Below are positions 3,149 to 4,540 of a stretch of DNA of 64,000 nucleotides, piece after piece. The stretch lies in NCBI RefSeq assembly GCF_900106645.1, contig NZ_FNMV01000001.1, forward strand, positions 372,001 to 436,000. The letters run 5' to 3'. The notes under the pieces are model-generated. The model searched no databases and was not told the DNA's origin. It worked only from the letters and a program-made list of their open reading frames with translations. Every line of letters starts with the position of its first letter. Position 1 is the first letter of the stretch. The translations under genes were made by a program, and so were the position numbers. The DNA is from Flavobacterium degerlachei. Lineage in GTDB: Bacteria > Bacteroidota > Bacteroidia > Flavobacteriales > Flavobacteriaceae.

Positions 3149-3447
3149 TTAAGTTATTTTATTCAATCTTTTTTTTAACAAAGAATTCTCCGTGATTTTA
3201 GGATATCGTATTAGGTTTTCGATATAAATTTTACTTTTCATTTTCTTGATATGCTTCTCGATTGCTAAAGCTTGTGTTTTGGTGTCACATTCAATTTAAA
3301 ATAGATTTCTCAATCTGTAGCTTTACTCGTAAATTTTCTAGTTTCGTTTGAATTTAAATGAAATTCCAATCGTAGATCCAAATCAGAAGTATAGCCAATG
3401 TAAAATCGATTTAATGTGGCGGAGTGAAGAATGTAAACTAAATCCAT
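3149..3447 (-). pseudogene. GIY-YIG nuclease pseudogene (array copy 1)
   Basis: The first 45 codons match the intact gene at 3842-4132 almost exactly, starting MDLVYILHSATLNRFYIG. Relative to that copy, the TGG codon after Ala-Lys/Thr-Asp has become TGA near 3310, and one A is missing in the following AAAATTG run, shifting the frame. The remaining codons (IEKHIKKMKSKIYIENLIRYP) are still readable. After that the tail differs from all other copies and ends about 3149. The lesions are visible directly against the neighbour copy, so inactivation is firm. Confidence 0.85.
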
Positions 3448-3540
3448 TTTTGTAGCTTTTATAAAATGAAAGGTTTCTAAAACGCGAGCTTTGTCAAATA
3501 CGAAAGTAGTAAAAACAAAAAAGACCTTACATTGCTGTAA

Positions 3541-3626
3541 AGTCTTTTTAAAAAGTTGCTCCTGATAATAATTGGGATGGGCTCCAACCAACCCCGAAAG
3601 CTTTCGGGGCTATGATTAACAGTCTT
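3541..3626 (-). repeat. Degenerate tRNA-Asn 3'-half copy 1
   Basis: On the minus strand it carries the anticodon-arm word GACTGTTAATCA, a perfect palindrome CCCCGAAAGCTTTCGGGG in the variable-loop position, then TTGGTTGGAGCCCA (tRNA: TTGGTTCGAGCCCA) and GGAGC followed by CTTTTTAAAAAG as in the real tRNA 3' end. The T-loop C is replaced by G and there is no 5' half, so it cannot be a working tRNA. Confidence 0.75.
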
Positions 3627-3696
3627 TGTGTTTTTCAAGTAATTTGATGGTGATTTCAAGAAATCGTATTAAGTTTTCAATATAAATTTTACTTTT
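3616..3696 (-). pseudogene. GIY-YIG C-terminal tail fragment
   Basis: About 26 codons matching the C-terminus of the GIY-YIG gene at 3842-4132 (SKIYIENLIRF...EKHKDC then stop). The catalytic N-terminal half is absent and is replaced upstream by terminator and spacer sequence. The last codons and the stop (GAC TGT TAA) coincide with the tRNA-like anticodon word. Confidence 0.7.
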
Positions 3697-3775
3697 TCCA
3701 CTAAACCGAGAGCTACATAAGAACTTCGTTGAGTTTATTGCAAAAAAAAAGCCCGACATTGCTGTCAGGCTTTTT

Positions 3776-3852
3776 AAAAAGTTGCTCCCGATAATTATTG
3801 GGATGGGCTCCAACCAACCCCGAAAGCTTTCGGGGCTATGATTAACAGTCCT
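3776..3852 (-). repeat. Degenerate tRNA-Asn 3'-half copy 2
   Basis: Same structure as the copy at 3541-3626: GACTGTTAATCA, the palindrome CCCCGAAAGCTTTCGGGG, TTGGTTGGAGCCCA, an imperfect inverted repeat TCCCAATAATTATCGGGA, and a terminator. It directly follows the intact GIY-YIG gene, whose stop codon lies in it. Confidence 0.75.
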
Positions 3853-4132
3853 TATATTTTTCAATTAATTTGATTGAAATTTCAGGATATCGTATTAGGT
3901 TTTCAATATAGATTTTACTTTTCATTTCCTTGATATGCTTCTCGATTGCTAAAGCTTGTGTTTTGGTGTCACATTCAATTTTAAAGTAGATTTCCCAATC
4001 TTTAGCTTTACTCGTAAATTTTCTAGTTTCGTTTGAATTTAAATGAAATTCCAATCGTAGATCCAAATCAGAAGTATAGCCAATGTAAAATCGATTTAAT
4101 GTGGCGGAGTGAAGAATGTAAACTAAATCCAT
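3842..4132 (-). CDS. Small GIY-YIG nuclease-family protein
   Basis: A 96-residue single-domain GIY-YIG protein of the UvrC/UPF0213-like type. The hallmark strands are VYIL (residues 4-7) and FYIGYT (16-21), followed by the expected Arg in LRLEFH (26-31). The ATG at 4132 aligns with the family start; a longer frame reads through repeat DNA. The family comprises metal-dependent nucleases, and the role of these short bacterial members is not established. It is preceded by a terminator-like hairpin and a possible promoter (TACTTTCG). Its final codons GAC TGT and stop TAA lie within a copy of the tRNA-Asn anticodon arm. This is the only intact member of the array. Confidence 0.85.
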   Translation of the reverse strand: MDLVYILHSATLNRFYIGYTSDLDLRLEFHLNSNETRKFTSKAKDWEIYFKIECDTKTQALAIEKHIKEMKSKIYIENLIRYPEISIKLIEKYKDC

Positions 4133-4226
4133 TTTTGTAGCTTTTATAAAATGAAAGGTTTCTAAAACGCGAGCTTTCATCAAATACGAAAGTAGTAAAA
4201 ACAAAAAAGACCTTACATTGCTGTAA

Positions 4227-4312
4227 AGTCTTTTTAAAAAGTTGCTCCTGATAATAATTGGGATGGGCTCCAACCAACCCCGAAAGCTTTCGGGGTTATG
4301 ATTAACAGTCCT
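4227..4312 (-). repeat. Degenerate tRNA-Asn 3'-half copy 3
   Basis: Third copy of the tRNA-like module, next to the full tRNA. GACTGTTAATCA is followed by AACCCCGAAAGCTTTCGGGG, TTGGTTGGAGCCCA, and GGAGC with CTTTTTAAAAAG. Base-by-base it parallels the tRNA-Asn sequence from the anticodon stem to beyond the acceptor, with the palindrome inserted. Confidence 0.75.
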
Positions 4313-4382
4313 TATATTTTTCAATTAATTTGATTGAAATTTCAGGATATCGTATTAGGTTTTCAATATAGATTTTACTTTT
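4302..4382 (-). pseudogene. GIY-YIG C-terminal tail fragment
   Basis: Encodes SKIYIENLIRYPEISIKLIE and the final KYKDC, identical in protein sequence to the tail of the intact gene at 3842-4132, but joined upstream to GTTTAGTGGAAAAAG and the tRNA terminator rather than to a catalytic domain. It is a non-functional remnant that marks one array unit. Confidence 0.7.
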
Positions 4383-4427
4383 TCCACTAAACCGCGAGCT
4401 ACATAAGAACTTCGTTGAGTTTATTGC

Positions 4428-4460
4428 AAAAAAAAAGCCCGACATTGCTGTCAGGCTTTT
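4428..4460 (-). terminator. Terminator downstream of tRNA-Asn
   Basis: On the minus strand, an AAGCC-TGACA stem with GCAA loop and TGTC-GGGCTT, followed by nine T residues. The same hairpin recurs at about 3747-3775 within the array. Confidence 0.85.
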
Positions 4461-4466
4461 AAAAAG

Positions 4467-4540
4467 CTCCCTCTCTTGGGCTCGAACCAAGGACCCTCTG
4501 ATTAACAGTCAGATGCTCTAACCAACTGAGCTAAGAAGGA
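4467..4540 (-). tRNA. tRNA-Asn (anticodon GTT)
   Basis: A 74-nt cloverleaf: acceptor TCCTTCT paired with AGAGGGA, D arm GCTC/GAGC, anticodon stem TCTGA/TCAGA with loop CTGTTAA (anticodon GTT), T stem CTTGG/CCAAG with loop TTCGAGC, discriminator G. CCA is not encoded. A strong terminator follows and a good promoter match lies upstream. It decodes AAC/AAU. The adjacent array contains degraded copies of its 3' half. Confidence 0.97.

Follow-up and report, generated by a model that had tools for sequence, protein, structure and literature searches.

The 64,000-nucleotide stretch of Flavobacterium degerlachei DNA analyzed here (the window; contig NZ_FNMV01000001.1, positions 372,001 to 436,000) carries on its minus strand an intact tRNA-Asn(GTT) gene, behind which degenerate copies of the same tRNA alternate with genes for a small GIY-YIG nuclease or with their remnants (Table 1). 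Read along the minus strand, tRNA-Asn is succeeded by terminator T2, a GIY-YIG tail and pseudo-tRNA copy 1; next come terminator T1, the intact GIY-YIG gene and copy 2; T2 again, a second tail and copy 3 follow, and T1 again and a decayed GIY-YIG gene close the series. The array is a tandem duplication whose unit repeats about every 686 bp. A preliminary description of this DNA had reported an array of tRNA copies alternating with GIY-YIG genes or tails at tRNA-Asn. The array is confirmed and its layout stands, with the correction that just one nuclease gene is intact, accompanied by two C-terminal tails of 27 codons and one copy broken by stops.

Table 1 Features of the tRNA-Asn array, in window coordinates and in minus-strand order.
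Feature	Position	Strand	Basis
tRNA-Asn(GTT), intact, host gene of the array	4466-4540	-	ARAGORN; Rfam RF00005 (66.8 bits)
Terminator T2, directly 3′ of the tRNA	4433-4460	-	Terminator scan; unlike the terminator of empty G007 and G019
GIY-YIG C-terminal tail, 27 codons and stop	4302-4385	-	96% identity to residues 70-96 of the intact gene
Pseudo-tRNA-Asn copy 1: anticodon-arm word, palindrome (4278-4295), T-arm word, degenerate palindrome	4244-4310	-	Word searches
Terminator T1	4204-4235	-	Terminator scan; its stretch identical at 44/44 bases to that 3′ of tRNA-Asn in empty G007
Intact GIY-YIG nuclease gene, 96 aa	3842-4132	-	PF01541; stop within the copied anticodon arm
Pseudo-tRNA-Asn copy 2, palindrome 3818-3835	3784-3850	-	Word searches
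Terminator T2, second copy	3742-3779	-	Sequence reading, repeat family D1; absent from the terminator-scan list
Second GIY-YIG C-terminal tail	3616-3699	-	78% identity to residues 70-96
Pseudo-tRNA-Asn copy 3, palindrome 3592-3609	3558-3624	-	Word searches
Terminator T1, second copy	3518-3549	-	Terminator scan
Decayed GIY-YIG gene, internal stops	3185-3447 (contig C33:375185-375447)	-	Comparison with the intact gene

The anticodon-arm word GACTGTTAATCA occurs four times in the window, in the tRNA and its three copies, against 0.01 expected, and the T-arm word TTGGTT[C/G]GAGCCCA has the same four occurrences (0.03 expected, one mismatch allowed). The 18-nt palindrome CCCCGAAAGCTTTCGGGG was found once in each of the three pseudo-tRNA copies, as the preliminary description had it, and no other window site matches it with three or fewer mismatches. 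As read from the sequence, the 3′ acceptor part of the copies is replaced by a second, degenerate palindrome. The intact gene ends in the codons GAC TGT TAA, and both the word position and the gene coordinates bear out the earlier claim that its stop codon lies inside the copied anticodon arm. By local alignment the window pseudo-tRNA scored 25, below the highest shuffle score of 30; its significance therefore comes from the exact-word counts and not from the alignment score. None of the 12 Rfam matches obtained up to E 1 between window positions 2000 and 5400 was to an intron family. A promoter scan of the window returned 2 sites versus 5.9 in shuffled sequence, using a sigma-70 model, a type of scan that is unsuited to Bacteroidota.

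The protein of the intact gene belongs to the GIY-YIG superfamily (PF01541, E 1.8e-13, 51 bits versus a cut-off of 22.6). Residues Y5, Y16, R26 and E64, presumably the active site since we take two Tyr, an Arg and a Glu to be the conserved GIY-YIG catalytic positions, were invariant in 16 of 16 aligned members. The nuclease is under purifying selection, with a median ratio of nonsynonymous to synonymous divergence (dN/dS) of 0.15 over 59 pairs. Its nearest solved relatives by sequence were the UPF0213 proteins 1zg2 and 1ywl (E 7e-12 and 2e-10), which are of similar size.

The protein alone was searched against 150 genomes of the same genus, 83 of which matched. A sample of 112 loci with 152 open reading frames (ORFs), own genome included, was picked by GIY-YIG similarity alone; overlapping duplicates (L002, L003, L005, L006 and L007) were removed, and the listed places in G018, G024, G042, G109, G110, G141 and G149, two in G091 and weaker unlisted ones lie outside the sample. 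In 79 of the 112 loci the first ORF began less than 100 nt 3′ of an intact tRNA on the same strand, and in 11 it began 100–1,100 nt away, with a median tRNA-to-ORF distance of 56 nt over 90 loci. An intact tRNA directly followed the ORF in four loci, and 18 held none in the stretch retrieved. Among those 18, 13 gave a tRNA-type match above all shuffles and 5 did not, and 8 begin no more than 500 nt from the end of a contig or of the retrieved stretch. Identical nuclease tails far from tRNA genes and devoid of tRNA-like words, which the preliminary description had named as evidence that would speak against a tRNA anchor, were thus largely absent from the genus loci.

The tRNAs at the genus loci were of types Asn, Phe, Ala, Val, Arg, Pro, Met and Asp, and the nuclease lineages follow them closely. 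A protein tree of 103 rows and 85 columns was built without ORFs shorter than 75 aa and labeled by the adjacent tRNA or, failing that, by a pseudo-tRNA score of at least 45, which left 4 rows unlabeled; many of its forks are open. On this tree tRNA type changed 12 times when the unlabeled rows were treated as their own group, against a minimum of 9 and a mean of 69.2 after shuffling, and none of 200 shuffles gave so low a count; without those rows it changed 8 times. Independently of the tree, the sequence around and after each ORF end was compared with a tRNA library from which the suspect calls Lys-ttt, Phe-aaa and Ile-tat and tRNAs of 96 nt or longer were excluded, with five letter shuffles per ORF and tandem copies counted singly. 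Among the 110 ORFs compared, the pseudo-tRNA was of the adjacent tRNA's type in all 80 that scored above every shuffle. Further cassettes of the window's own genome were also seen: a pair at C15:103-646 that places in the Met clade of the tree, and one at C36:56346-56591 that is flanked on both sides by Ala-type pseudo-tRNA ends, with no intact tRNA nearby.

The duplicated part of the tRNA reaches the anticodon or D arm, and in some Val and Arg copies it comprises most of the tRNA. A mirror layout was found at loci such as L089, L112, L116, L117, L203, L226, L236 and L235 (Pro, Arg-TCG, Asn and Arg-CCT), in which the 5′ part of a pseudo-tRNA with its palindrome precedes the GIY-YIG gene and the intact tRNA follows. 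The earlier proposal that insertion copies the tRNA 3′ half therefore needs amending: duplication of the tRNA holds, but the part duplicated is not always the 3′ half. Arrays were not confined to the window. At L042 (G138:C1:1849300-1854500) seven GIY-YIG copies with near-identical proteins follow tRNA-Arg(TCT) at a spacing of 374 bp, which is a recent tandem amplification. At L010 (2024–2790) eight palindrome-bearing units, mostly 93–96 bp apart with one double gap, run from tRNA-Asn to the GIY-YIG gene and are apparently pseudo-tRNA and terminator repeats without a nuclease. In L039, L042, L055, L070 and L138, ARAGORN calls a tRNA-Lys, tRNA-Ile or tRNA-SeC that overlaps the GIY-YIG ORF end; these calls fall on pseudo-tRNAs in which the palindrome replaces the anticodon arm, and such calls are likely an annotation artefact in public genomes.

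A GC-rich palindrome was present in 89 of 98 pseudo-tRNA test windows, taken from ORFs of at least 75 aa with a pseudo-tRNA score of at least 36, versus 43 of 1,095 control windows. Its position is largely fixed for each tRNA type. The commonest placement replaces the anticodon stem-loop, at bases 28–44 in Ala and Arg and 29–45 in Val and Pro, many Val test windows having been scored on the natural T-arm hairpin rather than on the palindrome. The bases most often replaced in the other types are 46–50 (Asn), 57–61 (Phe), 39–50 (Asp) and 38–47 (Met), with minor placements at 53–57 in Asn and from base 13 in Pro. Palindromes of different tRNA types are much alike, and the core TCCCG...CGGGA recurs in loci across the phylum. 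In the own genome the pattern has 20 sites versus 2 control sites, 4 of them in GIY-YIG arrays; 13 of the 16 other sites were scanned, and no tRNA was found within about 1.5 kb of them. Across 320 kb of loci, a GIY-YIG ORF was no more than 200 nt away from 100 of 131 sites of a similar pattern. By these counts the palindrome is concentrated at the arrays yet not exclusive to them, and the idea that it is a genome-wide repeat was rejected. RNA folding of four pseudo-tRNAs gave modest z-scores (−1.4 to −2.4). By the palindrome alone, the sites recall the repetitive extragenic palindromes (REPs) of REP/RAYT (REP-associated tyrosine transposase) elements.

This enrichment, the fixed positions and the phylum-wide core would also be expected if the nuclease were structure-specific and SLX1-like, with the palindromes or tRNA-arm cruciforms as its substrates; array growth and movement would then be by-products of cutting the pseudo-tRNA palindrome and would not involve recognition of the tRNA sequence. 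Of the four solved relatives that sequence comparison returned, two are SLX1 chains, with weak E-values. Such an activity would leave the pattern of one tRNA type per clade unexplained, the palindromes being alike between types, and the scanned palindromes of the own genome that lie away from any tRNA fit it poorly. We give this account a small but real chance.

Related strains with an empty tRNA 3′ flank, a check suggested in the preliminary description, were looked for and found. When tRNA-Asn loci were retrieved regardless of the nuclease, 5 of 30 had a downstream GIY-YIG hit, one of them a fragment. At an orthologous tRNA-Val locus with upstream flanks 83–85% identical, G079 has one copy, G015 has two, and G006 and G008 have none. 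The cleanest pair consists of occupied L166 (Flavobacterium pectinovorum strain 9) and empty L333 (G060), which have collinear flanks (82% identical upstream, 87% downstream) and two tRNA-Asn genes in common. From the last tRNA to the common flank there are 442 nt in L166 and 48 nt in L333, an insertion of ~0.4 kb that holds a GIY-YIG ORF alone and no integrase. The 3′ ends of tRNA genes are classic attachment sites, and the tRNA is restored at these loci, as it would be if integrase-driven islands or prophages had left them as scars and the nuclease were a remnant of the cargo. The size and content of the L166 insertion, duplications that extend to the anticodon or D arm, the 5′-sided mirror layout and the agreement of clade with tRNA type all argue against this origin, which we regard as very improbable.

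The terminators reveal which end is new. We compared 17 distinct loci that have two tRNA-Asn genes and a common downstream gene, 12 occupied and 5 empty; identical pairs were counted once, loci whose flanks matched over less than 160 nt (L179, L183, L187 and L280 among others) were excluded, and occupancy was taken from the locus searches and from a scan with a 900-nt limit, which misses L010 and L170. A resident-type terminator R (GAC[T/G]ATC...) follows the tRNA in all five empty loci. In 9 of the 12 occupied loci the tRNA is followed instead by a cassette-type terminator E (ATACCACTTAC...GTAAGTGGTAT), and in 8 of these 9 R stands just before the common flank, the remaining one being unclassifiable. 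The displaced terminator is near-identical to that of an empty locus in the single pairs L182–L336 and L199–L339. L163 shares the terminator beyond its cassette with empty L333 and its tRNA-side terminator with L166. At L279 and L282 terminator E is present but the next 900 nt hold no GIY-YIG hit, as expected of lost cassettes. In the window, T1 follows copies 1 and 3 and T2 follows the tRNA. From the placements of T1 and T2 and of E and R it therefore appears that the cassette brings the tRNA-side end and that the resident end moves downstream, so the copying of a 3′ half proposed earlier would be better described as an incoming 3′ end that displaces the old one, with the 5′ part duplicated in the mirror layout.

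Displacement of this kind, like the decaying arrays, is not predicted if the nuclease is a guard of tRNA sites that cuts incoming elements with tRNA 3′ ends as attachment sites. A guard would fit one nuclease lineage per tRNA type, and PADLOC returned weak matches to PDC-S14 (3) and UzuA (2) among the 16 members. The identical chromosomal tRNA would have to be spared, and this function seems extremely improbable.

Recent movement could be seen in one group. Four Flavobacterium species contributed L163, L165, L166 and L168, in which the nuclease genes are 95.5–96.9% identical and the flanks, where aligned, 80–92%. Across these loci the synonymous divergence (dS) of the nuclease was 0.10–0.14, compared with a proportion of synonymous differences (pS) of 0.46–0.65 in rseP, the gene just upstream; the corresponding nonsynonymous proportion (pN) of rseP was inflated in comparisons with L163 and L165, probably by misaligned ends, which leaves L166–L168 as the clean pair. 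Between these two, identity was 78–90% upstream, 91–100% from the tRNA to the gene end, 87% in the test window at the pseudo-tRNA end and 77–97% downstream, so that the edges of the high-identity block are the tRNA and the pseudo-tRNA. A weaker second case is L183–L187 (nuclease dS 0.08, rseP pS 0.31). In 7 of 40 listed pairs the nuclease was clearly less diverged than rseP.

We think it probable that these loci are minimal selfish mobile cassettes, each entering one kind of tRNA gene and supplying it with a new 3′ end and terminator, and that they spread, most likely, by intronless homing. In a cassette, one GIY-YIG gene would be flanked on one side by a complete tRNA 3′ end and that end's own terminator and on the other by a damaged copy of the tRNA. 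The nuclease would cut a cassette-free tRNA gene, and repair would copy the cassette in, using the conserved tRNA as the region of homology. The tRNA would remain functional because the incoming DNA provides its 3′ part and terminator; the resident 3′ end and terminator would be pushed 3′ of the nuclease gene and persist as the palindrome-interrupted pseudo-tRNA. Since each insertion would leave the tRNA intact, tandem arrays could build up, and the window array is a decaying example of such stacked copies. Removal of the nuclease target from the displaced copy is our preferred guess for the role of the palindrome. The nuclease may be expressed at a low level by read-through from the tRNA, and the carrier tRNA might escape through tolerance and sister-copy repair, through low expression behind the tRNA terminator or through recognition that extends to the 3′ flank. 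A protective base change in the occupied tRNA was considered and rejected, as tRNA-Val is identical in both alleles and all 100 tRNA-Asn rows have matched bases at the single acceptor pair that varies; the tRNA is too conserved to reveal a chimera. Comparative sequence evidence makes mobility and terminator displacement well supported parts of this reading. The tRNA-anchored mobile cassette of the preliminary description, thought to keep the tRNA whole, thus gains support from the concordance of clades with tRNAs and the identity of the pseudo-tRNAs, and also from the empty orthologous site, the high cassette identity between diverged flanks in one species group and the displaced terminators.

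Several observations weigh against cassette homing. Cutting of the tRNA gene is a putative step, and the carrier's own identical tRNA would be expected to be cut as well, tRNA-Val being the same in occupied and empty alleles. With ~90 aa the protein has little besides its catalytic domain, which is small for a site-specific homing enzyme. In 30 of the 110 pseudo-tRNA comparisons, the window's included, the score was no higher than the shuffles reached. An R-type terminator stands at the tRNA in 3 of the 12 occupied loci (L163, L166 and L168), T1 follows tRNA-Asn in just two of the five nearest relatives of the window's locus (G007 and G019) with other terminators in the remaining three, and L303 lacks a downstream flank common to its empty orthologues, so that its right edge is unseen. 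In 28 of the other 33 of the 40 listed pairs the synonymous divergence of the nuclease equaled or exceeded that of rseP, and the L171–L172 cassette is less similar than its upstream flank; because of these, recent transfer is claimed for the one group only. Within the genus, Asn, Ala, Phe, Asp and Arg cassettes are each confined to one upstream context, a pattern that long vertical descent would also produce.

The last two points and the rseP synteny at tRNA-Asn are what one would expect of a locus-bound host gene that arose from old local duplications of tRNA ends and was inherited vertically with frequent loss. Its divergence outside the transfer cases would then be ordinary or high, as it is in those 28 pairs. 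Vertical descent would account neither for the displaced terminators nor for high identity bounded by the cassette, and occupancy at orthologous sites is patchy. Where no common ORF connected them, upstream contexts were also counted separately and numbered four for Val (18 loci), five for Pro (13 loci) and three for Met (5 loci), counts that may be too high where the upstream sequence was short. We therefore consider a locus-bound gene quite unlikely and retain the homing cassette as the working interpretation.

Beyond the genus, tRNA linkage was examined for the retrieved loci. A search of the order gave 26 of 29 loci with an upstream tRNA and 1 with a downstream tRNA, same-genus loci and two overlapping, already counted loci included; elsewhere in the phylum 14 of 16 loci had an upstream tRNA, adding Thr(TGT), Arg(ACG) and Pro(CGG). 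Family matches were found in at least 107 of 296 genomes of the order and at least 250 of 395 of the phylum. In a protein-only search of 84,980 species, the best 80 of 125 confirmed places were all in Bacteroidota-named entries except one labeled Rickettsiales. Among these best 80, a tRNA lay at most 150 nt upstream in 49 (29 Asn, 8 Met, 7 Leu-CAA, 3 Phe and 2 Leu-TAA), 10 had an upstream tRNA farther away, 6 were at contig ends and 15 had none upstream. In six of those 15 a tRNA lies downstream, at 10–392 nt (Asn in L203, L218, L226 and L236; Arg-CCT in L235 and L240); the opposite flank of the gene carries a pseudo 5′ part whose palindrome falls within the D arm or adjoins it. At least six more (L164, L192, L193, L202, L204 and L217) have tRNA 3′ remains and no intact tRNA. 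The system is thus phylum-wide in Bacteroidota and involves at least 12 anticodons. A broader version of our interpretation can be offered tentatively, at somewhat less than even confidence: the cassettes would be phylum-wide, self-restoring elements of ~0.4 kb with one lineage per tRNA, whose nuclease reads the tRNA gene and whose palindrome, in place of the anticodon stem-loop (Ala, Arg, Val and Pro) or of another part, marks the cut site and shields the displaced copy from cutting and from loss by recombination, so that the functional tRNA alone stays a live target and arrays accumulate.

The closest analogues are the mobile ORFs of fungal mitochondria and SegB of T-even phages, and the logic is common to both. 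Mobile ORFs in Allomyces atp6 and in Glomus atp6, atp9, cox2 and nad3 replace gene ends: like the cassettes, they are free-standing endonuclease ORFs in a host gene. They bring along a substitute 3′ end, and the native one, now farther downstream, resembles its counterpart in close relatives (PMC3630166). The fungal ORFs reside in protein genes of mitochondria and are mostly LAGLIDADG enzymes, with GIY-YIG at atp9, whereas the cassettes reside in tRNA genes of bacterial chromosomes and differ further in the palindrome of the displaced end, the tandem arrays and the one nuclease lineage per tRNA type. A displaced native end closer to that of relatives was found here in 8 of the 9 E-type loci. 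According to the portions available, SegB is a free-standing GIY-YIG homing endonuclease among tRNA genes, is implicated in cutting tRNA-containing DNA and drives tandem amplification, probably via recombination between tRNA and segB ends; it is phage-encoded, and those portions report neither a tRNA-specific clade series nor a palindrome-bearing pseudo-tRNA (PMC13096335, PMC2988022). The cassettes share with free-standing homing endonucleases of the Seg type an ORF outside any intron or intein and presence or absence at one site. Group I intron endonucleases of the I-TevI type are of the same catalytic family, and their model TIGR01453 matches 8 of the 16 members, the window protein not among them at E 0.001. 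Unlike a group I intron, the window cassette showed no intron RNA core around its ORF among the Rfam matches up to E 1, and the tRNA is kept whole through duplication rather than splicing. Nor does the ~0.4-kb insertion of L166 carry the integrase of a tRNA-integrating island, as it holds the GIY-YIG ORF alone.

Among landing sites of large integrase-driven islands, tRNA genes are the best known. Here a single nuclease of 80–100 aa seems sufficient to colonize these genes, with neither integrase nor intron, and with the tRNA still working. In the literature covered, namely titles and abstracts, with most subscription papers beyond reach, no tRNA-linked GIY-YIG cassettes in bacterial chromosomes were described. 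The part of a GIY-YIG superfamily survey that was available contains no word starting with Bacteroid or Flavobact and mentions tRNA three times, never with regard to insertion sites (PMC1564403). Hosts among the tRNA genes of bacterial chromosomes, one lineage per tRNA and palindrome-bearing pseudo-tRNAs therefore seem to be undescribed. If homing is the true mode of spread, the cassette would be a very compact chromosomal selfish element and would offer a ready set of small tRNA-gene-specific nucleases. It would also account for multi-copy GIY-YIG genes and some false tRNA calls in Bacteroidota, and would extend a mitochondrial mechanism of gene-end replacement to bacterial chromosomes.

Two other features of the window were seen near the array. 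A sub-threshold match to the Flavo-1 small RNA lies at 2420–2561 on the plus strand (37 bits versus a gathering threshold of 42). At 813–2250 on the minus strand, judged by eye from the translation, there is a putative cytosine-5 DNA methyltransferase gene with an adjoining small XRE-type regulator.

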